64,000 nt of DNA from Verrucomicrobiia bacterium (GCA_030432235.1 JAUIHT010000001.1:1-64000), one strand, 5' to 3'. Shown: positions 29,185 to 49,607, counted from the stretch's first letter. Numbers and translations are program-made. The notes: generated from the letters alone by a model not told the origin.

Positions 29185-30966
29185 TTACGCTGGGCCATCG
29201 CTATGGTCATTCGAGGTGGCCTCTGTTCCAGCAGGTGTCGCCGGCTTTCGGCGCGGTGAAAACATGCGAGCCAGCAGGAGCCCACCGACCCCCAGGATAA
29301 ATAGGCCGAGAAGCAGTATCTGCAGGCGCGCGGCCAGGCTGTTGGGGAGGAAAAGAAAGAGCAGGATCATCGCTCCCAGCGTGCAGGAAGTCCCGCCAAG
29401 AATCTTATATTGGATGCGGTCTTCGGAGTGGCCGATCTCTCGGGCAAAGTCCACCGGCTTGTGCATTTTTTCGTAAAAGCGAGCGACCTGGTCCTTGTAT
29501 GCTGTTGAGGCACGCTTCCAGACAGGCAAGCTGATGAGGCAACCGAGGAGGCTGAAGCCGTAAATCCATACGAGACGGTCCTGGATGGGCCAGGATTCGC
29601 CCCCGGCAGTGCTTTGCACCACAAAGTATGCCGAGGGTATCAAGGCCATGGCGATGATGATATAGTAGGACCACCAGTGCAGGCGCTTGATCCAGAGGGC
29701 TAATAGTATGGGCATACTCAGGGGCAGGCCGACGACGGCGGAGATCATCAGGTAGGCGTCGAACAGAGCTATTTCCTTCTGAAAAGCCAGTAAGAGCCCG
29801 ACCATGATGATGTAGATACCCAGCAGGACGGTGAACAACCGGCATAGGTATAATCCGGTGCGATCGCTCAGGGGAGCCAGGCCGAGTTTTTCCCGCAGAC
29901 GGGGTATCATGTTGTTGACGATGATGCCGGTGGTGGTGTTCAGCCCGGTATCCATGCTGCTCATGGTGGCAGCCAGCATGGCGGCAAGCATCAGGCCCAT
30001 CAGTCCGTTTGGTAGGAGGTTTTGCGCGATGACCGCATAGCTGGCCGTGGCCGGCTCTTTGATGCCCTGGGCCAGCACTTGGTCTGCGTAGAGGAAGCGC
30101 GCCACCATGGGTGGCACGAACCAGACGATGGTGCCGATGATCATGAGCAGGCACGCCCAGACGGATGCCCAGCGCGCGTGCCGGCTGTCCTTGACGGAGA
30201 GAAAGCGCCCTGCCGTACCGAGGTTCAGGTAGCCCTGTAGCTGCAGGATGAAGATTACGATGGCCCATTTCCAGGTGAACTTGTCGCCCGCAAATTGGCC
30301 GGGTTCCTTGATCCACTGGAAGTCCTGTGCAAAGCGTGAGTCGTGGAAATAGGCAAAGAAAGCACCGAAGCCACCGACCGCCTTCAGCGAAAGATAGAAA
30401 ACCAGAATGGTCAGGGCAAAGAGCAATAGCCCCTGCACGAAGTCCGTTGCCATCACCGCCCAACGCCCGCCCGTAGTGGAATAAAACAGGACGATGAAGC
30501 CCAGCACGATAATCACCCAGGGGGTGGGGATGTTGAGTATGGCCGACGTAAAGACGGCCAGGGCATAGAGCTGGGTGGCCGCGCTGATGGGCTGGATGAG
30601 CAGGGAAAAAATGGCGCTGAACTGCTCCACGCTTACATGAAATCGCTCACGCATAACGTCTGCCCAGGTCGTGGCACGGGTTTGCCGAAACCAGGGGCCG
30701 ATGAATATGCACAGGGCAAGTCCCACGATATTCGCCAGATAGATAACGAGAAATGTAGGACCTGCGGTAAATGCAGCGGAGGCGTTTCCGGTGAAGGTGA
30801 AGGCGCTGATGCCGGCCATGAACATGCTGGTGCCGACCATCCACCAGGTGCCCTGTGCTCCGCCACGTGCGAAGTCGCTGATGTTGCGATTGAGGCGCGA
30901 GAAGAGCGTCCCCACGATCATCAGCACCAGTAAATAAACGCCGAGGACCGTGTATTCGATGATCAT
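29185..30966 (-). CDS. Sodium:solute symporter (SSS family)
   Basis: A 593-residue transporter with about 13-14 membrane spans. The SSS pattern is clear: 'GGAQGTWWMVGTSMFMAGISAFTFTGNASAAF' near the start, 'GLMLAAMLAATMSSMDTGLNTTTGIIVNNM' in the middle and a C-terminal basic tail. The ATG at 30966 is preferred over a GTG at 31041, which lies inside the next gene. Relatives carry sugars, organic acids or amino acids with Na+; the substrate cannot be named. It follows the 744-residue beta-helix gene by 31 bases, so the two probably form one unit. A close paralogue is at 51011. Confidence 0.92.
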   Translation of the reverse strand: MIIEYTVLGVYLLVLMIVGTLFSRLNRNISDFARGGAQGTWWMVGTSMFMAGISAFTFTGNASAAFTAGPTFLVIYLANIVGLALCIFIGPWFRQTRATTWADVMRERFHVSVEQFSAIFSLLIQPISAATQLYALAVFTSAILNIPTPWVIIVLGFIVLFYSTTGGRWAVMATDFVQGLLLFALTILVFYLSLKAVGGFGAFFAYFHDSRFAQDFQWIKEPGQFAGDKFTWKWAIVIFILQLQGYLNLGTAGRFLSVKDSRHARWASVWACLLMIIGTIVWFVPPMVARFLYADQVLAQGIKEPATASYAVIAQNLLPNGLMGLMLAAMLAATMSSMDTGLNTTTGIIVNNMIPRLREKLGLAPLSDRTGLYLCRLFTVLLGIYIIMVGLLLAFQKEIALFDAYLMISAVVGLPLSMPILLALWIKRLHWWSYYIIIAMALIPSAYFVVQSTAGGESWPIQDRLVWIYGFSLLGCLISLPVWKRASTAYKDQVARFYEKMHKPVDFAREIGHSEDRIQYKILGGTSCTLGAMILLFLFLPNSLAARLQILLLGLFILGVGGLLLARMFSPRRKPATPAGTEATSNDHSDGPA

Positions 30967-30997
30967 GGGAACGTGTTCTCTGGATGTCTGATAGCCT

Positions 30998-33232
30998 CTA
31001 TGGCTCCAACTCAATGTAGTCGACGACCAGCCCGTAGCCACTGCTGGCCGCGTTTTTGCCGGTCACAGTGAGGGTTACGTCCTTGTCGCCCGAGGTGGTG
31101 AAGGTCTTGGTGCCTATGGAGAGCTCCTGGTAGGTGATGCTGGCGCTATACTGATCCTGTTCCGTACCGAAATCGACGCCGTCGATTGCGAGTTGGAACT
31201 TGCCGCGTGTGTTCATCGTTTTGGTTCCTATCTTGATGGTGTATTGGCCGGCGGGAACATCAGGTAAGGTATAGGTGATGTAATCCCCCGAGGCGTCGGC
31301 ATTGAGTTTTTCCGCTTCACCATTACTGGACTGTGATTCAGTGAAGTTGGTGATGGAATCGGAGGCACCAGGCGTGGCGAGGGATTCCGCCTCATAGCGA
31401 ATCGTTGAGGTGTCATAAGGGCAAAGATAGATGTAGTCGAAGGTTAAACTATAACCGGGACTGGAGGCATTTTTGCCTGTGACGGTGAAGGTGAAGTCGC
31501 GATCCCCGGTGGAGGTGAAGGTGCGGCTGCCAAGATAGAATGCGTCGTAGGCAGTGCCATTGTAGTACTCGTCTTGAATGGCCCCTTGGTCAATCCCGTC
31601 GATGTCGAGTTGGAATTGTCCGCGGGACGTGAACTTCTTAACCCGGGCCAGGACTTGGTAATCGCCTGCCGGGATGTCCGGTAGCGTATAGGTGATGTAA
31701 TCGCCTACGGCGTTGGCATTGAGCTTGTCGGCCGCACCTCCGCTGGCGCCACCTTCGTAGAAGACAGTGACGGTGTCCGAGGCGGAAATCGTGCTGACAT
31801 CCTCGTTCTCGAAGAGTAGCTCACCAATATAGCCCGGGGATGAATAGTTTAGGCCTGCTGTGCCAGAGGGGACAAAGTCTCCCCCGGGCGGTGTCCCCTC
31901 GTAGAGGCCACCCGTGACCCAGCTGAGTCCCGGCCAGGTGAGGTAGCCGTCGGTCATGGATGCTTGTTGATCGGGATCGGAGTGGTTTCTGGCTGGGTAC
32001 ACGGCCAGATCGAGAGGTGTACCGGAACGCGGCTGACCGTAGAAGTTGACAAATTCGTTAGGGAAGGGACCGCCCATCCCTCCGGATAATCCACGATCGA
32101 GCCAGACCACGCCACCGCCGCCGGCTCCGGCGAACCATTCGGGATCCAGGGAGATATCCATACGCTTAAAGGTGAACTTGTTGTTCGTGTTGTAATTGGC
32201 AACGAGGAACAAGCCCTGGTAGTTACTGCTGCCGCTCAAGCGGTCGACGCGTACTTCCAGGGACCCTCCCCAGGTCTGAATGACGTCGGAATGAACGCCG
32301 CCTGACTCGGTGTCCAGATAGCCCTGCAGGTGCTCCACGCGCGCATTCTGAATTTGGATGATGGATGTCGGTGCGCTGATGCCGAAAGCATCACCCTGGG
32401 CGATACTGCTTTCGTGTGAAATGAGTACACCTTCGATATGAACGACGCGTCCATAATCTCCGCTCTTAATAATGAAAGCGTTATCCACATTGCTGATTTC
32501 TATTTGGCCACCGATGACGACCACATTGCGTCCACCTTCGATTTGTACCCGCCTTTTGCGTGTGACGGTGGTTGGCAGGTTGATGATGTAGTCCTGTCCG
32601 GAGCTGAGGGTCGAGAGCCAGTCGTTTTCGCCGAGGTTGATCGTTACCGGGTCGACCAGCGCGGGTGGCGCCCAAGTCAGCTTTTCACTGGGAGCCACCG
32701 ATACATTGTCGATGGCGAAATTACTGTCACTGCCCCCCAGGCGAAAGGCCAAATAGGCGCCGGCTTCGTTGGATGATGGGGTGAAGCTGTAGGTGTAGCT
32801 GTCCGTGGTAGTGCCGATGGACAGATTGTACTTGGCCCAAAGGACGGAGCCGGACTCGCTGTAGACAATGACGTCGATGGCCTTGGTCTCGCTGGCGTTG
32901 GCTTCGAAGTAAATGGCATGCGGGATGTTCGCCATGAGGTCGCCGTAGAATGTCTGCTTGAGCTGAACGTTGGCTTTATGGGAGCCGCCATCGGTGATGG
33001 TGACCAGGGCCTTGCCGGCGCTGTTGGTGAGGGTGCCCGAAGCACCGGAGGTGAAACTCGTGGTCCAGCCATCGAAGCTCGCGAAGCTGCCGTTGGTGAT
33101 TAATTCGCCTGGAGTAGCCAGGGCGGATGCCAGGCCGGATAGCATGCAAAGCACAGCCATTCTAAGGATGAAGGCGGTTGCTTGGAGGGGGGGGCGATTT
33201 GATTTATTCAACGAGGTTAGGGGTGTTTTCAT
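30998..33232 (-). CDS. Secreted multi-domain beta-helix-like protein with CBM-like modules
   Basis: A 744-residue secreted protein (signal peptide about 1-40). Residues 42-180 resemble a CBM4/9-type jellyroll ('ELITNGSFASFDGWTTSF', 'FAIDNVSVAP'). Residues 183-470 form a right-handed beta-helix-like unit starting EKLTWAPP with 'GGRNVVVIGG' and 'GVHSDVIQTWGG'. Two tandem C-terminal modules of about 130 residues follow (about 480-608 and 612-744), each with 'DYITYTLPD.PAG.Y' and 'FQL.IDG.D.G..QD.Y', like CBM6/35-type domains. The central unit is paralogous to the whole 39294-40283 protein. It probably binds or cleaves a polysaccharide; no catalytic residues were proven. The shared TTCTTACTGTAGAA element lies upstream at 33283. 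Confidence 0.72.
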   Translation of the reverse strand: MKTPLTSLNKSNRPPLQATAFILRMAVLCMLSGLASALATPGELITNGSFASFDGWTTSFTSGASGTLTNSAGKALVTITDGGSHKANVQLKQTFYGDLMANIPHAIYFEANASETKAIDVIVYSESGSVLWAKYNLSIGTTTDSYTYSFTPSSNEAGAYLAFRLGGSDSNFAIDNVSVAPSEKLTWAPPALVDPVTINLGENDWLSTLSSGQDYIINLPTTVTRKRRVQIEGGRNVVVIGGQIEISNVDNAFIIKSGDYGRVVHIEGVLISHESSIAQGDAFGISAPTSIIQIQNARVEHLQGYLDTESGGVHSDVIQTWGGSLEVRVDRLSGSSNYQGLFLVANYNTNNKFTFKRMDISLDPEWFAGAGGGGVVWLDRGLSGGMGGPFPNEFVNFYGQPRSGTPLDLAVYPARNHSDPDQQASMTDGYLTWPGLSWVTGGLYEGTPPGGDFVPSGTAGLNYSSPGYIGELLFENEDVSTISASDTVTVFYEGGASGGAADKLNANAVGDYITYTLPDIPAGDYQVLARVKKFTSRGQFQLDIDGIDQGAIQDEYYNGTAYDAFYLGSRTFTSTGDRDFTFTVTGKNASSPGYSLTFDYIYLCPYDTSTIRYEAESLATPGASDSITNFTESQSSNGEAEKLNADASGDYITYTLPDVPAGQYTIKIGTKTMNTRGKFQLAIDGVDFGTEQDQYSASITYQELSIGTKTFTTSGDKDVTLTVTGKNAASSGYGLVVDYIELEP

Positions 33233-33282
33233 AACGGCATCAGCCTATCTGAAGCCGTGTTTCTCCAGCAAATGGCGCGTTC

Positions 33283-33296
33283 TTCTTACTGTAGAA
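33283..33296 (-). promoter_or_regulatory. Shared regulatory element TTCTTACTGTAGAA
   Basis: An exact copy of the 14-base element, 50 bases upstream of the beta-helix/symporter unit. The ends TTCT and AGAA are inverted. Other copies lie at 34816, 39237 and 41276. Confidence 0.6.
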
Positions 33297-33352
33297 TTTG
33301 ATGAGACGAAAGGCGGGTGGTGTGCCAATTTCATCCGGGCGACAGTACCGGA

Positions 33353-34768
33353 CTACTGGATAGCCGACACAACGGCTTTGTCTGAGAACTCCGACGCTTT
33401 GACGAAGTGAACCTTTTGCTCGACTAGAAAATCGATGATCTGAACGAACTGGTCCCAGCGTTCGCCGCTCCAATGTGACGGGTGGCCCTGGACGACGAAA
33501 TATTCGCTGCCTCGATTATGCGCATAGCCTTCCACGAAAGCGGCATAGTTGGGCACGAAGAGCGGGGCTTCGATGTTCAAGCTCCAGCAGCGCTCCAATA
33601 TGACTTTGCCTGCACTGTCATCTGTCTTTCCATATAGCCAAACGGTAATGTCCGGTGTTTCGGAAAGGACACGTACTGTATCCTCATCCGTAGCGCCGAA
33701 AGGGGGGCCAAAGGTGGTGAAAGGTGCGCCCAGGTATTCGCTCGCCAGTTGCTGCGAGCGTTCGAAATGTTCTTTTTGATGAGCGTAGCCCGAGCCTTTA
33801 AACTCCTTCAGGCTTTTGCCATCTGCCTTCCAGGCTGCATGGTCGTAGCCGTGATTCCAGTATTCGACCAGGCCGGTTGATTGAAAATCGCGTGCCCACG
33901 CCAGGAACTCGGTGGCGTTGTCATCCATGCCTTTCGCGATGATACCGAAGGTGACCGTGACGTTTTTCTCTTTTGCCAAATCGGCGACTTCTTTCCACTT
34001 GGGGTGCGCGTCTCCGTTGTGCGCTTTGAGGTCATCCAGTTTCAGGACAACTTTGGGCGGAGCCTGATTGCGATACGGGTTGTCCGCGATTTCCTCAAGG
34101 AACGCAGCCAACTCCACCGGATCGAAGGGCGGTACCGGTTGCTCTGCGGTAAGTTTTGGCGACCAGTCTTCACCCGCATCGAGGGCATAGATTTTAAAGT
34201 CATCGATATCGACAGCGCCGGCCTCGCCTTTGCCCGACAGGATATGAATCGACAAGTTTTCCGCATCGTCGGGCGCAGCGGCTGCGATCGTGGACTTGTT
34301 GAAGAAGCGTCCGCCACTCACTCGCACCCCGGGCCACTTGCGAATGGATGCTTCCGCCGGGGTAAGGCTATTGCCCGTGCTGTCCGAAAAATACATTTTC
34401 ACACCGATGTCGCTGCCGGGTTGCACCCCTCCTCCGCCGCTCCAGAAAGTAACGACATAAGTGGTCCCCGGCTCGACGGGAACGTCGGAGCTAACGATCT
34501 CAAACGGCCCTAACTCCGGGTCGCTGTTTACGCGCAGCCCGACCTTGCCCAGTGAGGCTGCTTCCGGAGTTGCTTGGACAATGTTGTTTTCGTCAACCGT
34601 GATAGTCCAGCCGCCCATTCCGTTTTCGAATCCGGCATTCGGCAGTGGTATCGCCTGCCGGGCGTGAGCTCCAGAGGCCATGAAAAGAAGACCAAGGACA
34701 CTGAAGAGCATGCAGGTAGATACCTTTGCGGTGAAAGATGGAAGTACTCTAGGAGGGAGCGTGATCAT
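33353..34768 (-). CDS. Secreted NodB-fold (polysaccharide deacetylase-like) protein with CBM-like domain
   Basis: A 471-residue secreted protein from the ATG at 34768 (a TTG at 34804 is the alternative). After the signal peptide (about 1-36) comes a CBM-like jellyroll (about 40-190: 'NAGFENGMGGWTITVD', 'GAVDIDDFKIYA'). A NodB-like catalytic domain follows with paired Asp in 'KLDDLKAHNGD' (about residue 245) and a His pair in 'NHGYDH' (about 305), the metal-site pattern of carbohydrate esterase family 4 relatives. The usual TFDDG motif is altered. The C-terminal 'FVVQGHPSHWS' fits the fold. It may deacetylate or bind a polysaccharide; activity is inferred. Confidence 0.68.
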   Translation of the reverse strand: MITLPPRVLPSFTAKVSTCMLFSVLGLLFMASGAHARQAIPLPNAGFENGMGGWTITVDENNIVQATPEAASLGKVGLRVNSDPELGPFEIVSSDVPVEPGTTYVVTFWSGGGGVQPGSDIGVKMYFSDSTGNSLTPAEASIRKWPGVRVSGGRFFNKSTIAAAAPDDAENLSIHILSGKGEAGAVDIDDFKIYALDAGEDWSPKLTAEQPVPPFDPVELAAFLEEIADNPYRNQAPPKVVLKLDDLKAHNGDAHPKWKEVADLAKEKNVTVTFGIIAKGMDDNATEFLAWARDFQSTGLVEYWNHGYDHAAWKADGKSLKEFKGSGYAHQKEHFERSQQLASEYLGAPFTTFGPPFGATDEDTVRVLSETPDITVWLYGKTDDSAGKVILERCWSLNIEAPLFVPNYAAFVEGYAHNRGSEYFVVQGHPSHWSGERWDQFVQIIDFLVEQKVHFVKASEFSDKAVVSAIQ

Positions 34769-34815
34769 GATGATGATTACCTTTGCGATGCTTGCGTGGT
34801 TCAAATGCTATGAGC

Positions 34816-34829
34816 TTCGCACTGTAGAA
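34816..34829 (-). promoter_or_regulatory. Shared regulatory element, variant TTCGCACTGTAGAA
   Basis: Matches 12 of 14 bases of the element, with the core ACTGTAGAA intact. It lies 48 bases upstream of the ATG at 34768, close to the 50-base spacing of the 33283 copy. Confidence 0.5.
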
Positions 34830-35546
34830 CTAGAGGTTCCTCTCAATGAATTTCTTTACCTGGACGCCGCCGCGGCTGTCCTCACTGGGGATGATAAAAA
34901 CGGTATTTCGTCGGTTGCTGCTGACCGTCCACATGGAGCGATAAACCAGCCGCATCTCTTCGCCGTTGTTTTGAGCGAGTTGCACTTTGACGGTTTGTTG
35001 ATTGTCATGATTACCGGGCTGACGAATAATCATCAGCTTGTCGGGCTCAAGGCGATAGAGCTCCGGTTTGTCGCCGAGAGCCAGGACGACGGGTTGGCCA
35101 GTAAGATTCAGGACGCGGTAGCTGCGGGCAGTAAAGTTGTCTGTTGAGGCATCCCAGGTCAGGATACGGTAGGTGCCAGCTTCAGCCGGGATGAAAACCA
35201 GCAGCATTTCGTCGCTGATATTCGTGAGGTTGGCAACTACGCTGGGCGGAGGACGCTCCTCGACCGGGAGGTGCAAGGCGGCCTTGTCCTGGTAAAAGGC
35301 AATGGTTGCGGGGCCGGAATAAGGAACAGGGATACTAAAACCTCCGGGGTAGGCTTTGATTTCTTCGACCTGGCCGCTGTTAAGATAGTACAGGTTGGAG
35401 ATTGGCTTGTCCCAGGAAAGGGTGGACAAATTCGTCTGGACCAATGGCATCTCCTGAGCACACGCCGCTCCACCTGCAATGAGTAGGCTGGCCACGAGTA
35501 CAGACCAGAGCGCGAAAGGCAGGCTATGGGGAACGCTAGATTTCAT
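34830..35546 (-). CDS. Secreted hypothetical protein, partner of the PilX-like gene
   Basis: A 238-residue protein with a signal peptide (about 1-31, ...GGAACAQE). The rest looks beta-rich ('PGGFSIPVPYSGPATIAFYQDK', 'LLVFIPAEAGTYRILTWD', 'QPVVLALGDKPELYRL') and I do not recognise the family. It overlaps the end of the 1202-residue gene by 11 bases, so the two are translationally coupled and probably work together. Its stop is one base from the regulatory element of the next gene. Confidence 0.65.
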   Translation of the reverse strand: MKSSVPHSLPFALWSVLVASLLIAGGAACAQEMPLVQTNLSTLSWDKPISNLYYLNSGQVEEIKAYPGGFSIPVPYSGPATIAFYQDKAALHLPVEERPPPSVVANLTNISDEMLLVFIPAEAGTYRILTWDASTDNFTARSYRVLNLTGQPVVLALGDKPELYRLEPDKLMIIRQPGNHDNQQTVKVQLAQNNGEEMRLVYRSMWTVSSNRRNTVFIIPSEDSRGGVQVKKFIERNL

Positions 35547-38500
35547 CTTTGTTCAACCAACGGAATGAAATGATGCGATAGGCGCGACCCATCAGTTGAT
35601 TTTCCGGATCGAGTAAGTCCTGTTCTGTGCGACCGAGTTCAGCAAGTGAGTCGGCGGACAGGTCGTTGCCAGTGCCCACCATGTCGGGATAACGTTGCAC
35701 GACGGCTTCACACCAGGCTTCGGAACTCGCGCCGTTGATGGCCTCGGCCTGGCCATAGGCGCGAATGACAAACGTGTCGGACCGTACTGTGAGTACTGGC
35801 GCCAAGGGCTGGAGCAAATCCCCTTGCAGGACGTAGCCGGGATAACCCGCGGCCTGACTGTCTGTCCAGTCTCCGGTGGTCTTGATGGCATCTGAATAAA
35901 CTCCTCCGGTCAGGCTGTCCGCTTGACGGGCAATCGAGTGATTAATGTTCTGGTTAACTGTGCTATCGAGCGCTGCCTGCAGTGCGCCACGCTGTTTCTG
36001 CTCTGTGGAACCGTCTAGGCGTCGGTTGACGAAGTCCGCCATGGAAAGGAAGGGACCGCGGCTTTTGACTTCAATAACGATAGCCTGTGCCAGGTCGTTC
36101 AGCTCCGTATCCGAGAGTTGGCGGTAGCCTTGAAAAAATGCCTCCATGCTGGAGTCGTTCGCTTCGTAGCCTTTGGCGAAGAGAGGCAGGCTGAAGTGGG
36201 AAATGTACACTCCGTCTGTGTCCGTCGAATCGAGTTGAGCGGCATTGTTGATGTCTATTTTCAGGAAGGGCTGGTCCATGCTGCTCAAGAGTGCCTTCCA
36301 CGCGCTGACGGAGGTGGAGTTCACATTGAAAGCCCCGTCGACCATGAAGCGGCCTCCCCAGGCACGTACGGAGTCGGCGTTGCTGGTGTCCAATAGATCA
36401 TTCAGATCTTCGCTATCGGCTGGAGTGGCGAACTGGTGTCGCGTATTGTAGAGACGTTTGCTTCCTTCGCGGAGTGCCTGGAAATCAGCATTGGAGGTCT
36501 GAGGGTCGAAGGTGGAAAAGAAGTACTCGTCAAAAAGCGAGTCGTTGACCAGATAGGCCGTATCGAAAAGATTCATGTCGGTCTGATCGTCAAAGTCCTC
36601 GTGCACGATATCATCCAGCGGGATGCGTGGGTTGGCATAAGAGTTCCCGACCAGGTAAGCAGGCTCAAAACTGTAACGCCCGAGGGTGGCGTGCTGGAAT
36701 TGGCCCAACGAAACCAATGGCATCCGGGGGATATCGAAGAGCGGTACATGAGCCCGCCCATAGTTTGGATCACTGATGGATGCGCCGTTGATGCCGGTGT
36801 CGCGGTCATAATCGTCAAAAACCGGAGGCACGCCGATACCGGGGGCAAGGTAGCCGTTATTGCCAGGGGCGGTATAGGCCCCGAGTGTGAAGAGGCCAGG
36901 TCCGTCCCAGCGGGGAGTGCCGGTGATGGCGCGCAGGTTAGCGTCAATCAGGTTGCGAATACCCTGTCCGGACTCATCGTAGGTGGTGCGCAGGTTGAAT
37001 GCCCACGCCCCGATATCCACATAGCTGCTGCCCACATTTTCACTCGGGAGGAAAGGAGGGTAGGTGCCATCGGTAACCTGGCCGGGCTCCAGATCGGCGT
37101 CGCCATTGGCGTAAACGGTATCTTTCCAGAGACCCGAATAACGCTGCATATTGGCCTGACCGCTTGAGCCATAGGTGTGTTTGAGAAGTATAAAGGCCCC
37201 GCTGTAGGCGTCGGCACCTGCTTCATCCGAGCGATCTTTGAAAGCGACGCTGTGGATCGTTACCGGTTCGTTTTTGATGAATTCCTGTTGCCCTTCCGGT
37301 GGGGTGTAAGTTTTCGATTCTTCGAAAGGCCAGTAGATGAAAAAACCACGGGTGTCCTTAAAGCCGTAATCAAGCAGGTTGCGGTAGTTTTTGGCTTCAT
37401 GTACCGACGACTTTACCGTGGACATGAGACGGATTTCTCCCGGCTCGAAGTCCAAGTCCAGTGGTGTGTGCATGGCCCAGTAGCCACCACTTTGCTTTTC
37501 TTTGTCACCCCATTGTAATGCCGTGGCGAGGTTGATGGTCTCGGTGAAGGTGGTGCCGTCTTGGTAGGTGCCGGAAATTACAAACTCCGGGAGGGATTCG
37601 CTTTCGATTTTATAGCGTGAATCTCCACCGCTATAGGCTTCAGTGATTTTGACATTGTAAGGATTCCACAGGCCGATGACGGGTTGGATATAGAATTTCA
37701 ATTTGTAGTTGGTTGGATTGCCTTCGTTGTCTGTGCCTTTGGGCTCAGCTCCGGCTCGCACGATAAACATCACGCGTTCGATCACCGGACTGAGCGGGTT
37801 GTTGGTGTGCTGGTCGTCTCGTTTAGTCCAATCCGCCACGCCATAATTCTGATAAGGCCTCGGGTCTGGTTGGCGTGCAGGGGCAGACTTATCATAGGGC
37901 CAGGCAATGATGGGTGCGATTTCACCATCTGCGGCCTGCTCGTACAGGTGGTAGTAGTGGTAGAGGGTACCCCAATTGGGGCCGACGTTGGTCTTGCCGT
38001 TCTCTGCCTGGATTTCAGGGGTGAGATAGAAATCCGTCGCTTGGCTGGAGAAATCCACGACGTTGGTCAGCAGGGGGGCGATTCCGCTATCGATGTCGGC
38101 GGCCACTGGCCGGGCACCGAAGAATTGTTCGAAGACATCGTCGTTATTGAAGGCGAGGGTGAGGTCCTTTTTGAAGCCACCCTTGCGCACGTCAGTGAGC
38201 AAGCCGCGCGAATAGACCGTCAGGTCGTGGCGCGCTGCCAGGAAAGCGGTTTCCTCGTCGGGGGTGTCGACGCCGAACAATGGGCGGAGTGAATCGTAGT
38301 TGACGGCACGCGACGAGGTGGAGCTGGTCTCGCTTTCGGTGAGCGGCTCCCAGAGGCCACCCAAATGTTCTACGCCCGACTTGTGGGCCAGAGCGGCGGC
38401 GATTAAGGTGGCTCGTGCCTCGTCCGAATCTCCGGCGGAAAAGCTTTCGCCGACAAAGTCCGTGAGTGTGGTGGTGCCGTCGCGGATGGCGTCCCGGGTG

Positions 38501-39144
38501 TCGATGCTGGCTTTGACCCCCTCGTCCCCGACCCACCAGGCAAAACTATCGGTGTCTGTAAAGGACTGTCTGCCGGCAACCACCTCCGGAGTGGGCCCTT
38601 GGGTGGATACCAGGGGCACGCGGTACTCGTCGGGAATGTCGGTGGTCAGCGGATCGATATCCTCAGGGCGATTATCCGGCATGGATACCAGCCAACCCAT
38701 CGGCTCCTGACGAGCGTTTGGATCGTTGGCCTGGCGCTTTGTGTGGTCTTGGCAAGCGATGTCCGGATTGGCATCGGCGCTATTCCATACGCCAGTCCAA
38801 TAACGGTAGGGGCTGTCTTCAGGCAGGCCGAGAATATCCGCCTGCGCGGTGATGCGTGTGTCCGGGCCGGACAGGCGCTGCAATTCGCTCAAGCCTATTT
38901 GCAGGCCGAGCAAGGCGTTTGCCTGAGCTTCCTTCTGGCGTAAGGTCGTGGCGCTGGAGTGCATCTCCAACTGTACCGAAACACTTAGCCCCACCAGCAT
39001 CAGAAGGATCAAGGACATCAGCGCGATGGCGACAACCAGGGCAAAGCCACTCGATTCGCGCTGATTGCAGCGCTGTCCGCCACGTGGAGATATCTGGCGG
39101 GAGGCTTGACCGGTTTTTCGGCCCTTCTGGGGGTGGGTATTCAT
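35536..39144 (-). CDS. Large PilX/GspK-like protein, possible Verru_Chthon cassette A type
   Basis: A 1202-residue protein with one N-terminal membrane span (residues 33-56: GFALVVAIALMSLILLMLVGL) preceded by a basic, Gly/Arg/Gln-rich head. 'RESSGFALVVAIALMSL' is a PilX/GspK-type leader without the +5 Glu. A long soluble part follows with 'GWLVSMPDN', 'WWVGDEGVKASIDTRD' and 'IFVRAYGQAE'-like strands near the end. The layout and length recall the 'Verru_Chthon cassette protein A' family of Verrucomicrobia, which is normally found with pilin-like proteins B-D. Those are not adjacent here. It may assemble on a pseudopilus. It carries the 39237 element upstream. Confidence 0.65.
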   Translation of the reverse strand: MNTHPQKGRKTGQASRQISPRGGQRCNQRESSGFALVVAIALMSLILLMLVGLSVSVQLEMHSSATTLRQKEAQANALLGLQIGLSELQRLSGPDTRITAQADILGLPEDSPYRYWTGVWNSADANPDIACQDHTKRQANDPNARQEPMGWLVSMPDNRPEDIDPLTTDIPDEYRVPLVSTQGPTPEVVAGRQSFTDTDSFAWWVGDEGVKASIDTRDAIRDGTTTLTDFVGESFSAGDSDEARATLIAAALAHKSGVEHLGGLWEPLTESETSSTSSRAVNYDSLRPLFGVDTPDEETAFLAARHDLTVYSRGLLTDVRKGGFKKDLTLAFNNDDVFEQFFGARPVAADIDSGIAPLLTNVVDFSSQATDFYLTPEIQAENGKTNVGPNWGTLYHYYHLYEQAADGEIAPIIAWPYDKSAPARQPDPRPYQNYGVADWTKRDDQHTNNPLSPVIERVMFIVRAGAEPKGTDNEGNPTNYKLKFYIQPVIGLWNPYNVKITEAYSGGDSRYKIESESLPEFVISGTYQDGTTFTETINLATALQWGDKEKQSGGYWAMHTPLDLDFEPGEIRLMSTVKSSVHEAKNYRNLLDYGFKDTRGFFIYWPFEESKTYTPPEGQQEFIKNEPVTIHSVAFKDRSDEAGADAYSGAFILLKHTYGSSGQANMQRYSGLWKDTVYANGDADLEPGQVTDGTYPPFLPSENVGSSYVDIGAWAFNLRTTYDESGQGIRNLIDANLRAITGTPRWDGPGLFTLGAYTAPGNNGYLAPGIGVPPVFDDYDRDTGINGASISDPNYGRAHVPLFDIPRMPLVSLGQFQHATLGRYSFEPAYLVGNSYANPRIPLDDIVHEDFDDQTDMNLFDTAYLVNDSLFDEYFFSTFDPQTSNADFQALREGSKRLYNTRHQFATPADSEDLNDLLDTSNADSVRAWGGRFMVDGAFNVNSTSVSAWKALLSSMDQPFLKIDINNAAQLDSTDTDGVYISHFSLPLFAKGYEANDSSMEAFFQGYRQLSDTELNDLAQAIVIEVKSRGPFLSMADFVNRRLDGSTEQKQRGALQAALDSTVNQNINHSIARQADSLTGGVYSDAIKTTGDWTDSQAAGYPGYVLQGDLLQPLAPVLTVRSDTFVIRAYGQAEAINGASSEAWCEAVVQRYPDMVGTGNDLSADSLAELGRTEQDLLDPENQLMGRAYRIISFRWLNKDEI

Positions 39145-39236
39145 CGAGAAAGAAGTATGCCGGGCGGCGCCTGGGCACCGCCGACTTCCTCAATTATATC
39201 TGTAGGAAAGTTGGAATGGCAGCAATGGGCTTTGTT

Positions 39237-39250
39237 TTCTTACTGTAGAA
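39237..39250 (-). promoter_or_regulatory. Shared regulatory element TTCTTACTGTAGAA
   Basis: An exact 14-base copy, 92 bases upstream of the 1202-residue gene. It is identical to the copy at 33283. Confidence 0.6.
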
Positions 39251-39293
39251 AGTTCGCATTTTGATTACGTGGAATGGGTGAAAAGGCTCCCGG

Positions 39294-40283
39294 TTATTCG
39301 CTCAGGTAGCCGGGTGAGGTATAGTGGATGCCAACGTTTTCGGCGCTGACAAAATCGCCCCCGGGCGGCGGTCCTTTGTGGATGCCTCCGTTCACGAACG
39401 TCAAGCCGGGCCAGGTTACGTAGTCATCCTCGACATGGGCGCGTAACTCCTCGGTTTTCGCATTGCTTTGCGGGAAGACGGAATTGCCCAGTGTGCGGTT
39501 TGGGCGTGGTACAATATAGACTTCGGAGAAGGTGGTGGGTACGGGGCCGCCTTTGTCGCCGGACAGGCCGCGGTCCAGCCACAGGGCATGCCCGGACTTA
39601 GCCCCCGGATACCATTCGGGCTCCATGGTCAGGTTGACGTTTCGAAAGTCGAAGCTCCCGTTGGAGTTGTAATTGGCGACAAGGAAGAAGCCCTGGCAGT
39701 TGCAGCTGCCCGTGAGCCTGTCGACCCGGAGCTCCTGTACGCCGCCCCAGGGCTGGATGACGTCGGAGTGTACTTTATCATAGCCCCCTTTTAACTCTGT
39801 GGCGCGAAAGTTCTGCACCTGGACGATGGTGGTGGGCGCGTTGATGGCCAGTGCGTCTCCCTGTCCTTCGCCTTCGTAGGTCACTTGAATACCCTCAAGG
39901 TGCACAGTGCGACCGGGGTCGCCCCGGTGGACCTGGAATGCGTTCTCGTTGACATGCGGAATCTTACTGGTTCCTCCGATGATAACCACATTGCGGCCTC
40001 CTTTGATGAGAACGCGCCTAGTGCGCGGTTCGTCGGGGAACTGGATGATGTAGTCGCGCCCGGGCTCCAGTTCTGGCAACGAGGATTCCGTGTCGAGCTG
40101 AATGGTAATGGGGTTTTCCAGCGTTGGCGGCGCCCAGGTGAGCTTCTCTGCAGGTGCGGCCTTAACCAGTGTGTCCGGTGCGGATACGTCCTCGCCCGAG
40201 CTGGCCGTCAGGCAGCACGCGGTCGCCGTAAGGGCGCAACCACAGAGGAATACTTTCACGAAGCGGGTGGTGTATTGGGACAT
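39294..40283 (-). CDS. Secreted beta-helix-like protein, paralogue of the 744-residue protein's core
   Basis: A 329-residue exported protein (signal about 1-28; Cys residues at its end leave a lipoprotein possible). From EKLTWAPP (residue 46) to SPGYLSE at the end it parallels residues 183-470 of the protein at 30998, sharing 'GGRNVVIIGG', 'HSDVIQPWGG', 'RVDRLTGS', 'FLVANYN', 'WLDRGLSG..GGP' and 'PPGGDFV'. It lacks the CBM-like and C-terminal modules. A perfect palindrome touches its start codon at 40285. It lies 68 bases after a PEP-CTERM gene on the same strand. Function is unknown; the fold suggests a polysaccharide-binding or -lyase role. Confidence 0.68.
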   Translation of the reverse strand: MSQYTTRFVKVFLCGCALTATACCLTASSGEDVSAPDTLVKAAPAEKLTWAPPTLENPITIQLDTESSLPELEPGRDYIIQFPDEPRTRRVLIKGGRNVVIIGGTSKIPHVNENAFQVHRGDPGRTVHLEGIQVTYEGEGQGDALAINAPTTIVQVQNFRATELKGGYDKVHSDVIQPWGGVQELRVDRLTGSCNCQGFFLVANYNSNGSFDFRNVNLTMEPEWYPGAKSGHALWLDRGLSGDKGGPVPTTFSEVYIVPRPNRTLGNSVFPQSNAKTEELRAHVEDDYVTWPGLTFVNGGIHKGPPPGGDFVSAENVGIHYTSPGYLSE

Positions 40284-40284
40284 A

Positions 40285-40296
40285 GCAAAGCTTTGC
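40285..40296. promoter_or_regulatory. Perfect palindrome GCAAAGCTTTGC
   Basis: A 12-base perfect palindrome one base upstream of the ATG at 40283. Its shape resembles LacI-family operators. A 10/12 match lies at 41253. Confidence 0.5.
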
Positions 40297-40351
40297 GGTG
40301 GAGCAAGTCCACCAACGGATTAACTAACGACGGAAGGGAATCGTGCCTGGG

Positions 40352-41173
40352 TTAGGCAGAGCGTTGACGGCGGTACCAGGCGCAAAGGAGAACGACGCCT
40401 CCAAGAGACAGCGCCACGCTTCCGGGTTCGGGGATGGCGGTCATATTGACCTCGAAATTCTGGATGCGGGCGGCGTTGTTTGATAACCCGGTGTTACTAA
40501 AGAGGAAGCCGACCTCGGTGATGTTGCTGATCTTGCCGTCGGACACGATACTGGCCGCGGAACCAATGGTGGTTAGCGTGGTGGCGTCGTTTTCAGACCA
40601 GCCGGTCGGGTCGTAATTGTTCCAGGCAAGCTCGGTGGGCGTTTCTTCAAATGAGGTCACCGAATTGAAAAGCTCATCCGAAATATAGTAGGATGAACCT
40701 TGGCGTAAAACCAGGCGGCCGGGATTGAAATTTGCATAAGTGACCAAGTTGAGGGTAACCGTGTCGGAGGCGCCAAAATCGACCTGACCGGTATCGAGGC
40801 CGTTGAGGAAGTCTTCCTGCTTCCAGAGAACGAGGAAGGCGTAAGCACCGCTGCCGGTATTGTTACTCTTCAACTGGATGCGATCGTTCGAACCGTTGTC
40901 GTCAATGGCTGATTCACTGACACGTACGGCGCTTTCCCGAGCCTGGGCACCATAAAAGGTGGCGCTGGTGCCGCTATAGCTAGAGGACGGGCTGAGCAGT
41001 TGAGGCTCTCCGGAGCTGTAACCTCCGGGGAATTGCAGGCTGACATCGCCGGATACATAATCGCCGCCCCAGTCCACGGCAATCGTGGCGGAGGCAAGAT
41101 TGCAACTGGCGTAGAGCGCGATGGCCGTGCCCAAAAGCGTGGCGAACAGGTTACGAGGGGTATGCATTTTCAT
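40352..41173 (-). CDS. PEP-CTERM sorting-domain protein
   Basis: A 273-residue secreted protein. It has a signal peptide (about 1-29), a beta-rich body beginning 'TIAVDWGGDYVSGDVSLQFPGGYSSG', and a C-terminal PEP-CTERM signal: IPEPGSVALSLGGVVLLCAW followed by YRRQRS. It would be sorted by an exosortase to the outer surface. The body family is not recognised, though 'AYAFLVLWKQEDFLNGLDTG' style text recurs in Verrucomicrobial PEP-CTERM proteins. It is divergent from the LacI gene and has the 41276 element 103 bases upstream. Confidence 0.85.
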   Translation of the reverse strand: MKMHTPRNLFATLLGTAIALYASCNLASATIAVDWGGDYVSGDVSLQFPGGYSSGEPQLLSPSSSYSGTSATFYGAQARESAVRVSESAIDDNGSNDRIQLKSNNTGSGAYAFLVLWKQEDFLNGLDTGQVDFGASDTVTLNLVTYANFNPGRLVLRQGSSYYISDELFNSVTSFEETPTELAWNNYDPTGWSENDATTLTTIGSAASIVSDGKISNITEVGFLFSNTGLSNNAARIQNFEVNMTAIPEPGSVALSLGGVVLLCAWYRRQRSA

Positions 41174-41252
41174 GGGTAATGATTGGATGTTGAAGTTGCT
41201 GAAATCGAAGTTGGATTGTTCTCAAAACGGTAGAACCCGCTCCTGAAACTGT

Positions 41253-41264
41253 CAAAAGCTTTGC
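41253..41264. promoter_or_regulatory. Imperfect match to GCAAAGCTTTGC
   Basis: CAAAAGCTTTGC reads GCAAAGCTTTTG on the other strand, matching 10 of 12 bases of the 40285 palindrome. It lies in the divergent PEP-CTERM/LacI intergenic region. Confidence 0.35.
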
Positions 41265-41275
41265 CGAGTACTTTA

Positions 41276-41289
41276 TTCTCACTGTAGAA
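41276..41289 (-). promoter_or_regulatory. Shared regulatory element, variant TTCTCACTGTAGAA
   Basis: 13 of 14 bases match the element. It is 103 bases from both the PEP-CTERM start (41173) and the LacI start (41392), so it could serve both. Confidence 0.6.
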
Positions 41290-41391: not shown

Positions 41392-42429
41392 ATGGAGAAT
41401 TCCCGCAGCAAGCGCGTGACGGTCCGCGATATCGCTATGGCCACGGGCTATCACTACACCACGGTGAGCATGGGGCTGCGCGACAGCCCCGCTTTGCGGA
41501 GCGAAACGCGCCGCAAGATTCAGGAGGCGGCGGAGCAGCTGGGGTATCGGCCGGACCCGATGTTGTCCGCTCTGAATGCCTATCGGCGTGCCTCGCGTAC
41601 ACCGCATTTTCAGGCAGTGATCGGATGGATCAACAACTGGCCCGAGCGTGATGCTTTGCTCAAGATGCCGTCGTTCCGAGAGTATTTTGAAGGTGCCCGG
41701 GAGCGGGCGTTGCAGTTGGGCTACCTGCTGGAGGAGTTCTGGCTTCACGAACCGGGGATGCGCCAGGATGTACTGCGACGCATTTTCCGCGCGCGCAACA
41801 TACGTGCTGTGTTAATCGCGCCGCAGCCATTTGCCCATATGAAGCCGGACATCGACCTGAAAGAAGTTTCGGCGGTGGCATTTGGCTATAGCATGCAGCC
41901 GGCGCGTTTGAACCTGGTGACCAACCACCAGTTTCATTCCATGACGTTGATGCTGGCTGAGCTCCTGAAGCTCGGATACCGGCGCATCGGTTTTTTCCTG
42001 GAGTCGGATTGGGACGAAAAAGTCGATAATGCCTGGATTGGCAGCTTATTAGTGGCACAGCGTCGCCACCCTGAAGTACGCTTCATGATGAACCTTGAGA
42101 ATCCGAACCAGAGCCTGAAGGCCTGGCTGGCGGAATGCGAACCCGATGTGGTTATCTCACACGATGGAACTCGCAAGGAGCTGATTGCACTCGGTTATGC
42201 GATCCCGAAAGAAATCGGTTTTGCCAGTCTGGATATTTACACCGTATCCACCCAGCTTTCGGGCATTTACCAGAACAATTTGGAAATCGGCCGAAAGGCT
42301 GTGGATGTGCTCGTCGGCATGATCCATCGGGGCGAGCGCGGTTATCCGGAGAGCCCCACCCGTACCTTGATCGAGAGTAACTGGGTGCCTGGCAATACAT
42401 TGCGAAAACAACGTAAGAAGCGCAAATAG
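41392..42429 (+). CDS. LacI-family regulator, probable controller of the beta-helix locus
   Basis: A 345-residue LacI regulator. The helix-turn-helix is 'VTVRDIAMATGYHYTTVSMGL' and the hinge is 'PDPMLSALNAYRR'. The sensor domain contains 'EEFWLHEPGM' and 'ARNIRAVLIAPQPF', and the end reads 'PTRTLIESNWVPGNTLRKQRK'. These features are shared with the paralogue at 48402. It is divergent from a PEP-CTERM gene and 103 bases from a copy of the repeated 14-base element, which makes it the best candidate regulator of those genes. The effector, probably a sugar, is unknown. Confidence 0.92.
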   Translation: MENSRSKRVTVRDIAMATGYHYTTVSMGLRDSPALRSETRRKIQEAAEQLGYRPDPMLSALNAYRRASRTPHFQAVIGWINNWPERDALLKMPSFREYFEGARERALQLGYLLEEFWLHEPGMRQDVLRRIFRARNIRAVLIAPQPFAHMKPDIDLKEVSAVAFGYSMQPARLNLVTNHQFHSMTLMLAELLKLGYRRIGFFLESDWDEKVDNAWIGSLLVAQRRHPEVRFMMNLENPNQSLKAWLAECEPDVVISHDGTRKELIALGYAIPKEIGFASLDIYTVSTQLSGIYQNNLEIGRKAVDVLVGMIHRGERGYPESPTRTLIESNWVPGNTLRKQRKKRK

Positions 42430-46587: not shown

Positions 46588-48309
46588 CTATTCTGTTGCC
46601 TGGCGTTTGCGGTTCCGGAGAACCCAGAGCAGAACGCCAAGGCCCATAAATACTGCATAGGTGGAGGTCTCGGGGACCGCCGATACCGTGAAGTCCAGGC
46701 TGTTGGCATTCACGGTGAAAAAGCCATCGAGGCTACCCACATTACTGGTGAAGGAGAAATCCCCCGCGGAAAAATCGGTTGAGGAGAAAGAAATAAGCTC
46801 GTAGGTTTCATCTCCGTTGAGGCTGCCAGGATCGAGGAATTCAAATTCGAACAGCCAATCGGTCCCGGTGCCTTGGGTGAAGCTTCCGGAAATCGCGAGC
46901 TGGTCGGAGCTGGCGGTATCTGCACCGAGGTCGAAGAACATCCCGGCATTGGCGTCATCACTATTCCAGGTGACCGAATCGCCTGCGGTGAAGGTGCCGA
47001 CCTGCGAGGCCAATGTCCCGGTGTCGATGTCACCGGGGCTCATGCTGCCTCCGCCTTCCACCGTGATGGCTGTATTGACGATGCCGGTGCCTCCCAGGGT
47101 GGCGAGAGTTGACGTGCCCGTGCCGACAGTGACGGCTCCGGTGCCCAGACCTTCGCCGGAGGTGTTGTTGACGAGCAGCACGCCTTCGTTGACGAGCGTC
47201 TCGCCCGAAAAGCTGCCGTTGCCCGTAGCACGGATGAGCCGTACGACGCCCTCGCCGACTTTGGTGACGGATGCGCTGCCGGACGAGGCAAAGAGAAGGC
47301 CGCTGAAGTCGGTTACCCCGCCAGCGGCCGAGGTGAGTTGCACATCGCCATTCGATATCGAGAGGGGGCCGGTGAACGTTGATACGCCGCTGGTATGTTG
47401 ACCACCAACGATGTGGTCTACCGCATTGTCCGCAACGTACATGCTGTTATTGATGGTCAGGCCGCCGATGCCAGTCACCAGTTTTACTGTGTCGCCGGAG
47501 GTCGCGGTTCCGCCCAATTGCATTTCTGACGAGCCCAGAGCCGCATTATTTTCAAGGATAAGCGTGCCGCGCCAGAGCTTGCTTGTGGCCGATGCGCCCA
47601 GGGCCGTGTTTGCGCCACTGATGGTGTACTGCCCATTTCCATTACTGCCGTTGGAGCCGAACTCGAAGGCCAAAGTGGCTGTGCCGCCCGGCGCGGTGGT
47701 GGTGGATCCGGAATACGCAATGCTGCCCGAGCCTGTGCCGCTGCTGAAGACAAGCGACTTCTGCCCTGCGGTCGAGCCGCTGAGATTAATGTCGCCCGTT
47801 ATCGAGACCGTGCTCGAAAGATTCGAACTGTAGACTTTGAACTGCTGGGTACCGCCCGCGTTGAAATCCGTGACATTCATGTTGGCATTGACGGCCAGCG
47901 TTCCCGTTGACCCCAGTGAGCCACTGACGAATATCAGATTACTGTTCGTGGGGGTAACATTCAGGCTGTAGGGGCCTGTTCCCGGCTGAATCGTGATCGA
48001 GGTGTTCGTGTTATTGGAAGTCGTCGCGGCGAAGAGCGCGCTCAAACTAATGTCGGAATCCAGGGTCAGGACGGAAGACTGCCCATTGGAGCTGTTGCGA
48101 ATGTTGGCGACATTGCCCAAGCCGGGCCAGGCTTCGTTCGAATAGGGGGAGCCTGTGTCCAGACTCCAGTTGGCTGTGGTCGTGTCCCACGTTCCGGTGC
48201 CACCTTCCGCGGTGGTGGAACCGGCTGTCCAGTAGTAGTTTGCTGCCTGGCTTGGCAGGGCCATACAGGTGGCTGCGCACGCAAGTATTGATAGGGATAT
48301 GTTTCTCAT
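46588..48309 (-). CDS. Autotransporter-associated beta-strand repeat protein with PEP-CTERM anchor
   Basis: A 573-residue secreted protein with a signal peptide (about 1-22), then repeated beta-helix strands: 'YWTAGSTTAEGGTGTWDTTTANWS' at the start, the autotransporter-associated repeat 'GEGVVRLIRATGNGSFSGETLVNEGVLLVNN' near the middle and 'GGTGIVNTAITVEGGGSMSPGD'. The C-terminus is PEP-CTERM (VPETSTYAVFMGLGVLLWVLRNRKRQ). It is likely a surface-displayed beta-helix, function unknown. The gene starts beside a perfect palindrome (48325) and is divergent from a LacI gene, so it is probably a member of that LacI regulon. Confidence 0.9.
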   Translation of the reverse strand: MRNISLSILACAATCMALPSQAANYYWTAGSTTAEGGTGTWDTTTANWSLDTGSPYSNEAWPGLGNVANIRNSSNGQSSVLTLDSDISLSALFAATTSNNTNTSITIQPGTGPYSLNVTPTNSNLIFVSGSLGSTGTLAVNANMNVTDFNAGGTQQFKVYSSNLSSTVSITGDINLSGSTAGQKSLVFSSGTGSGSIAYSGSTTTAPGGTATLAFEFGSNGSNGNGQYTISGANTALGASATSKLWRGTLILENNAALGSSEMQLGGTATSGDTVKLVTGIGGLTINNSMYVADNAVDHIVGGQHTSGVSTFTGPLSISNGDVQLTSAAGGVTDFSGLLFASSGSASVTKVGEGVVRLIRATGNGSFSGETLVNEGVLLVNNTSGEGLGTGAVTVGTGTSTLATLGGTGIVNTAITVEGGGSMSPGDIDTGTLASQVGTFTAGDSVTWNSDDANAGMFFDLGADTASSDQLAISGSFTQGTGTDWLFEFEFLDPGSLNGDETYELISFSSTDFSAGDFSFTSNVGSLDGFFTVNANSLDFTVSAVPETSTYAVFMGLGVLLWVLRNRKRQATE

Positions 48310-48338: not shown

Positions 48339-48401
48339 GCTAATCATTCAGCGCTCATTCGCCTATTGACGCAATCGCGCCATAGTGCAAATTGTAGCGT
48401 A

Positions 48402-49472: not shown

Positions 49473-49607
49473 CACTAGAGAGGACGTTTATTTTAGTGAA
49501 GTAGTTAAGGCTATTTGGTGAGGGCGAACCGCTGCCTAAAGGTTGTGCAACAATTAGCGTAGCGGGGTCGTTGCCTTGCCTGAAAATTCAGACTTAATAA
49601 TTTCACT

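Follow-up and report, generated by a model that had tools for sequence, protein, structure and literature searches.

Introduction

Most members of the LacI family are repressors. In Verrucomicrobiota, each genome encodes tens of LacI paralogues, next to polysaccharide and surface-protein genes. A survey published in 2014, which spans 7 phyla, Verrucomicrobiota not among them, reported a central CG in 1173 of 1251 regulators with even-palindrome operators (PMC4052901). The genes ackA, pta and ilvB are activated by CcpA bound at cre sites upstream of the -35 (PMC3463425), and Escherichia coli GalR, bound to gal OE at -60.5, represses one promoter and activates the other (PMC4693257). Here we analyze a 14-bp element, TTCTTACTGTAGAA, repeated in a 64,000-nucleotide stretch of genomic DNA from a Verrucomicrobiia bacterium (GCA_030432235.1 JAUIHT010000001.1:1-64000; hereafter the window). 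A preliminary description of this stretch had placed four copies upstream of genes for secreted and surface proteins and proposed that they form a single regulon controlled by the LacI-family regulator encoded at 41392 (LacI-41392). Comparison with related loci indicates that the element is very probably where this adjoining regulator binds, and suggests that the regulator switches the secreted-protein genes on from a fixed position upstream of weak promoters, which is unusual for the LacI family.

Results

The element is a local cluster of a degenerate palindrome

By scanning the complete genome (5.72 Mb, 42 contigs), as had been proposed in the preliminary description, we found only two exact copies of the 14-mer, both in the window (33283 and 39237). 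The copies at 41276 and 34816 carry one and two mismatches, respectively, and all four sites are intergenic, at the positions originally given. They lie ~50, 47, 92 and 102 bp (33283, 34816, 39237 and 41276, respectively) from the minus-strand start codons, in agreement with the 48–103 bases first reported, and site 41276 is indeed equidistant from the divergent genes, with 102 bp to the start codon of the PEP-CTERM gene and 102 bp to that of lacI. Allowing up to 3 mismatches, the window holds 8 matches vs 1.42 expected, a count that none of 100 shuffles reached. The remaining four of these matches (21860, 25451, 47822 and 56299) are poorer, and those at 47822 and 56299 lie within called genes.

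In the whole genome, three of the 6 sites with at most one mismatch are in the window. With at most two mismatches there are 24 sites vs 31 for a reversed-pattern control, that is, no excess, and those outside the cluster are mostly scattered or within genes. Neither the 14-mer nor TTCTA-N4-TAGAA is enriched genome-wide, and no exact palindrome is present in this genome. The sequences flanking the four window copies are unrelated. The element is a real, local cluster and not a common promoter motif. It consists of a 14-bp imperfect palindrome, TTCTA-N4-TAGAA. The four copies described as sharing an invariant core, ACTGTAGAA, are real, but this core is better described as one perfect half-site (GTAGAA) together with the palindrome center. 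In the window the gene-distal half is perfect (TTCTAC) whereas the gene-proximal half is relaxed (AAGAA, GAGAA, GCGAA).

LacI genes of related genomes are linked to a matching operator class

Relatives of LacI-41392 were collected from related genomes to give a set of comparison loci (L numbers). The sample was seeded with a helix pattern and favors regulators with Thr or Ser at residue 18, operators not being selected for; one query was a consensus-like sequence composed by hand. Gene calls relied on our own coding score, which is crude outside the genome of the window, and related sequences in the set are not independent. Near-matches in these loci were shaped TTCTAC-NN-GTAGAA, which hinted at an even palindrome, TTCTA-N4-TAGAA. 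For 117 distinct LacI genes, all 4+4 palindromes with a gap of 0–10 in the 350-bp upstream region were counted, no motif being assumed. TCTA-N4-TAGA ranked first (13 vs 0.13 expected) and TCAA-N4-TTGA second (18 vs 0.8). Even 4+4 palindromes linked to lacI genes have the geometry of LacI-family operators and, judged by this comparison, the window element belongs to the TCTA-N4-TAGA class as a variant. The central CG pair of canonical LacI operators was found in none of the operators examined, their central pairs being AG/CT (42), AA/TT (31), CA/TG (16), CC/GG (11), AC/GT (8) and AT (2).

A matrix built solely from the LacI promoters of Thr18 regulators in other genomes placed 33283, 39237 and 41276 at joint rank 2 of 425,953 positions in the own genome and 34816 at rank 49; with the corresponding Ser18 matrix, all four stood at rank 871. 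Loci L093–L100 were chosen partly for motif matches, which makes the other-genome matrix ranking conservative. When LacI promoters were excluded, the Thr18 matrix detected 25 intergenic sites in 95 kb at Thr18 loci and none in 564 kb of coding sequence, with 2 sites at Ser18 loci and none at other loci, while the Ser18 matrix detected 32 intergenic and no genic sites at Ser18 loci and 3 sites at Thr18 loci. By this measure, sites of the class away from LacI genes fall between genes, and their type corresponds to that of the recognition helix in the LacI encoded nearby.

LacI-41392 has the HTH domain (PF00356) and the periplasmic-binding-protein-like sensor domain (PF13377) of the family, each above cut-off, and the hinge leucine (Leu56 of LacI) is present as Leu61, invariant in the alignment. 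Its score against the CcpA equivalog model, 19 bits, is below the cut-off of 442. The recognition helix reads TVSM, which places it outside the TVSR code group to which the second LacI of the window (48402) belongs. Thr18 regulators had 12 TCTA and 2 TCAA half-sites and Ser18 regulators 0 TCTA and 10 TCAA (Fisher p=6.7e-5); held-out Thr18 regulators had 3 TCTA and 0 TCAA. On the tree, residue 18 and half-site were concordant in 26/28 cases, with 6 and 5 changes and 3 supported independent pairs. A simple code in which residue 18 decides was rejected, because L168 and L173 are exceptions and the tree offers too few independent changes. Regulators combining Tyr17 or His17 with Thr18 (L128, L140, L148) have TTCT-N6-AGAA sites in which the inner base is relaxed. 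The site of L140, TTCTACAGGAAGAA, is one base off the TTCTACAGTAAGAA of the window, with identical orientation and spacing; this site and TTCTCATGAGAGAA, both found with HYTT-helix regulators elsewhere, have a TTG at +11. The HYTT helix and relaxed-half sites co-occur in L128, L140 and the window.

The locus itself is conserved. First, in Cerasicoccus frondis (L069), C. maritimus (L070, L071) and a metagenome-assembled genome of Opitutia (L072), a LacI gene lies beside relatives of the NodB/CBM protein of the window and is accompanied by PEP-CTERM-like, beta-helix and prepilin-like genes. Second, relatives of the window symporter are also held by L069, L070 and L072 (76–79% identity where complete), and relatives of the NodB-fold protein by L069, L070, L072, L114 and L115 (34–44% identity). 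Third, the orthologous loci L069–L072 have perfect palindromes upstream of prepilin-like, NodB, PEP-CTERM or lacI genes, and more of them are found in L114 and L115 upstream of prepilin-like, lacI and other genes.

Operators stand at a fixed distance from weak promoters

We aligned 89 exact operators, window excluded, on their gene-facing side. A TTG stood exactly 11 bp downstream of the operator in 28 of the 90 target-facing directions, other offsets averaging ~1.6, and in 17/32 directions where a single gene can be meant. The highest maximum under rotation was 10, and none of 2000 rotations reached 28. Moreover, nAnnnT occupied the 17-bp -10 place in 17 of these 28 promoters, which were picked for TTG alone, vs a mean of 1.85 at other places (p about 9e-14). 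These are weak core promoters, with 3.8/6 and 2.6/6 matches on average. The resulting grammar, operator-N11-TTGnnn-N17-nAnnnT, centers the operator at about -53.5 and, as in the class of activators that contact RNA polymerase, keeps it at a constant and helically phased distance upstream of a weak -35. In the window, 33283, 34816 and 39237 have a TTG at +11 toward their own genes (chance about 2e-5 at a 1.7% baseline), 41276 being the exception. Among LacI-facing operators, a +11 TTG was found in 1/20.

Held-out support for this spacing is modest. Only 2/13 new sites were at +11, a weak result. When patterns were searched in 273 genomes, gap 11 accounted for 7/22 Thr-type matches, of which 4 came from previously used loci, and for 10/59 Ser-type matches, not clearly above neighboring gaps; the three Ser-type gap-11 matches inspected in this family each lay at most about 1.1 kb from a Ser18 LacI.

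The predicted -10 boxes would put the transcript starts of the beta-helix (33232) and NodB (34768) genes nearly at the start codon, suggesting very short leaders or none. Ser-type operators are paired 46–58 bp apart in several promoters (L153, L119, L121, L138, L149); the window has weak partner sites, 39194 at a distance of 43 bp and 41230 at about 54 bp.

Other LacI regulators have their own sites

The second LacI of the window (48402; TVSR helix, Arg22) has TGCAAATTGTAGCG over its own start (48386–48399), and TGCAACAATTAGCG lies at 49546–49559, followed by 11 bp and TTGCCT before gene 49653; the grammar is shared and the half-site differs. That this regulator has its own operator type argues that the 14-mer belongs to LacI-41392. 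Exact palindromes gave no signal for the Arg22 class; its site was noticed on visual inspection and proved to occur twice in the window. Both sites read TGCAA-N4-TAGCG, as would be expected of a second LacI regulon with another half-site.

In the own genome, at least 19 LacI-like genes pass E 1e-40, and another Thr18 regulator (C37:647 kb) has similar sites alongside. Two overlapping-phase operators at L094:9043 and 9060 (C37:649042 and 649059), TTCTAACAGTAGTA and TACTAATGTTAGAA, lie near a Thr18 LacI, and each has a TTG at +11 toward divergent genes. Four GTCTATACATATAA-type palindromes surround a TQAT-helix LacI at L099:5578, 9727, 12186 and 13131 (C39:520–534 kb). Locus L085, also with a TQAT-helix LacI, has three TTAT-N4-ATAA palindromes, all with a TTG at the same spacing. 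The promoter grammar may thereby extend to further helix classes.

Features of the locus are collected in Table 1. Relatives of the 1202-aa PilX-like protein occur in many Verrucomicrobial LacI loci despite its lack of a family match.

Table 1. Genes, proposed operators and promoter elements of the locus (window coordinates)
Feature	Position	Strand	Role or context	Remarks
SSF sodium:solute symporter	29185..31041	-	unit of the beta-helix/CBM6 gene	SSF 1.1e-32; 76–79% relatives in L069, L072
Beta-helix/CBM6 protein	30998..33232	-	target	CBM_6 5.2e-07; 50% relative adjoins LacI of L114
-35-like TTGCTG	33266..33271	-	11 bp past operator 33283	candidate -10 TAGGCT 33242–33247, 18-bp spacer; -10 assignment weak
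Operator TTCTACAGTAAGAA	33283..33296	-	upstream of beta-helix/CBM protein and SSF symporter unit	exact copy
NodB-fold polysaccharide deacetylase/DUF2334 with CBM4_9-like domain	33353..34804	-	target	Pfam; relatives in orthologous LacI loci
Core promoter	34776..34804	-	past operator 34816	TTGAAC 34799–34804 (+11), 17 bp, GGTAAT 34776–34781
Weaker operator TTCTACAGTGCGAA	34816..34829	-	upstream of NodB-fold/CBM gene	2 mismatches
238-aa secreted protein	34830..35546	-	unit of the PilX-like gene	overlaps PilX-like gene; no family match (Pfam, NCBIfam)
PilX-like 1202-aa protein	35536..39144	-	target	relatives in several LacI loci; no Pfam/NCBIfam match
Possible second weak operator (tentative)	39194..39207	-	over TATAAT 39193–39198	2 mismatches to TTCTA-N4-TAGAA; 43 bp from 39237 site
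TTGCTG	39220–39225	-	+11 of operator 39237	
Operator TTCTACAGTAAGAA	39237..39250	-	upstream of 1202-aa PilX-like and 238-aa secreted protein genes	exact copy
Second beta-helix-like protein	39294..40283	-	probably in PEP-CTERM unit	ORF; segment in common with 30998–33232 by eye; no Pfam match
PEP-CTERM protein	40352..41173	-	target	PEP-CTERM matches at C-terminus, sub-cutoff
PEP-CTERM core promoter	41227..41255	-	20 bp from operator 41276	TTGACA 41250–41255, 17 bp, TACCGT 41227–41232
GTAGAA half-site	41230–41235		overlaps PEP-CTERM -10	
Operator TTCTCACTGTAGAA	41276..41289	.	between divergent PEP-CTERM and lacI genes	1 mismatch
LacI-family regulator	41392..42429	+	proposed binder	helix HYTTVSMGLRD (Tyr17 Thr18 Met22); Pfam LacI PF00356 1.2e-07, Peripla_BP_3 2.6e-09

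Discussion

As far as the comparison of loci reaches, it establishes the identity of the operator, its link to the LacI type and the spacing rule. It also favors the single regulon of secreted and surface proteins under LacI-41392 that had been put forward in the preliminary description: the palindrome class was obtained de novo and three sites share rank 2; sites track helix type and avoid coding sequence; HYTT relatives have near-identical sites; and LacI 48402 has an operator of its own. A LacI-41392 dimer would read two inverted half-sites around a 4-bp center, perfect on the distal and relaxed on the proximal side, as seen for other regulators whose helix has Tyr17-Thr18. Bound at the promoters of the beta-helix, NodB and PilX-like genes, such a dimer would be separated by 11 bp from a weak TTGnnn -35 downstream, within reach of RNA polymerase. 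Its most likely action would be to activate, under control of a ligand that is probably an oligosaccharide, a regulon for polysaccharide use and surface proteins; the operator lying between the divergent lacI and PEP-CTERM genes would additionally serve autoregulation. The fixed spacing to a weak -35 suggests activation and not the repression that a LacI protein would lead one to expect. Taken jointly, we consider it probable that the element is the operator of LacI-41392 and that this regulator activates the regulon under control of a ligand.

Several points weigh against this reading. Site 34816 is weak, and site 41276, the closest to lacI, lacks the +11 spacing, its consensus TTGACA standing at +20. 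The -10 boxes at 33283 and 39237 fit the 17-bp spacer poorly. In the related loci, LacI-facing operators are without the +11 TTG and sometimes lie over a -10, where a repressor would sit. The association between residue 18 and operator is suggestive and not significant after phylogeny, and residue 18 alone is, on these comparisons, not the whole code.

The main rival keeps the same operators and the same LacI but lets the protein repress, by contact inhibition from about -54, in the manner of GalR at galP1 (-60.5), by pairing with the weak second half-sites that cover the -10, or by shutting off lacI itself, with an oligosaccharide relieving the repression. Repression is what most LacI-family members do. 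GalR at -60.5 represses P1 while activating P2 (PMC4693257), secondary half-sites cover the -10 at 39194 and 41230, and several LacI-facing operators overlap a promoter. However, second half-sites are present at just 2/4 window promoters, the core promoters are as weak as activator-dependent promoters should be, and a blocking repressor has no need of a fixed distance to the -35. Since activators do require such a distance to a weak -35, activation is preferred, and we regard repression as possible but rather unlikely.

A different, perhaps unlinked regulator, either a LacI paralogue with a Thr18 helix or a member of another family, would find room among the numerous LacI-like genes of the genome, the Thr18 regulator at C37:647 kb with its similar neighboring sites being a case in point, and an unlinked regulator of identical helix type could share the sites of the window. 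Against this, the sites cluster here only, one of them inside the intergenic region of lacI-41392, the second window LacI is served by its own Arg22-type sites (48386 and 49546), and the HYTT helix is coupled to relaxed-half sites in L128, L140 and the window. Binding of the 14-mer by another regulator therefore seems improbable.

The preliminary description had itself raised the possibility of a general sigma-factor or promoter element, and TACAGT within the element does look like a -10. This -10 was rejected, since no -35 lies 17 bp upstream of it at 33283, 39237 or 41276, where a proper -35/-10 is found downstream instead; with two exact copies in the genome and no excess over the reversed control, such an element is very improbable. 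Chance or recently duplicated promoter DNA, for which the small number of copies (four) might speak, is scarcely credible given the unrelated flanks, the shuffles that fall short of the observed count, and the fit of the sites to a matrix and a spacing rule learned from other loci.

Text searches of the literature, covering non-subscription papers, for these operator sequences and for any LacI operator of Verrucomicrobiota returned nothing relevant. More generally, Verrucomicrobiota LacI paralogues might be mainly ligand-controlled activators that share the grammar operator-N11-TTGnnn-N17-nAnnnT, two or three helix residues (17, 18, 22) choosing the half-site, a proposal on which we are evenly divided. 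If true, this would be a phylum-scale case of LacI proteins acting mainly as activators, and polysaccharide-use and surface-protein regulons would be readable from sequence; a readable operator with fixed promoter spacing would allow regulon prediction in uncultured Verrucomicrobiota.

Local LacI regulons with even palindromes are a known kind of system, to which this one belongs. As in those described by Camas (2010, PMC2978694) and Ravcheev (2014, PMC4052901), a palindrome with a 14-bp core precedes the regulator and neighboring sugar-use or surface genes, and helix residues 17, 18 and 22 (there AA-15, 16 and 20) set the half-site. The published rule that Arg22 goes with a G half-site (PMC2978694) holds here too, for LacI 48402. 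In contrast, the code as published applies to TVSR regulators, whose operators have a central CG, whereas the group described here is TVS-L/M and lacks that pair. Like CcpA (PMC3463425), LacI-41392 would use a 14-bp pseudo-palindrome upstream of the -35 that is tied to activation, here on the grounds of geometry; unlike CcpA, which is global and works with HPr-Ser-P, many paralogues would each govern a local regulon, with a constant 11 bp between operator and -35 throughout the paralogues. The operator upstream of the promoter and the proposed contact with RNA polymerase recall GalR, although operator position and sequence differ. What is new here is the TVS-L/M helix group, the absent central CG, the phylum and the fixed, activator-like spacing.

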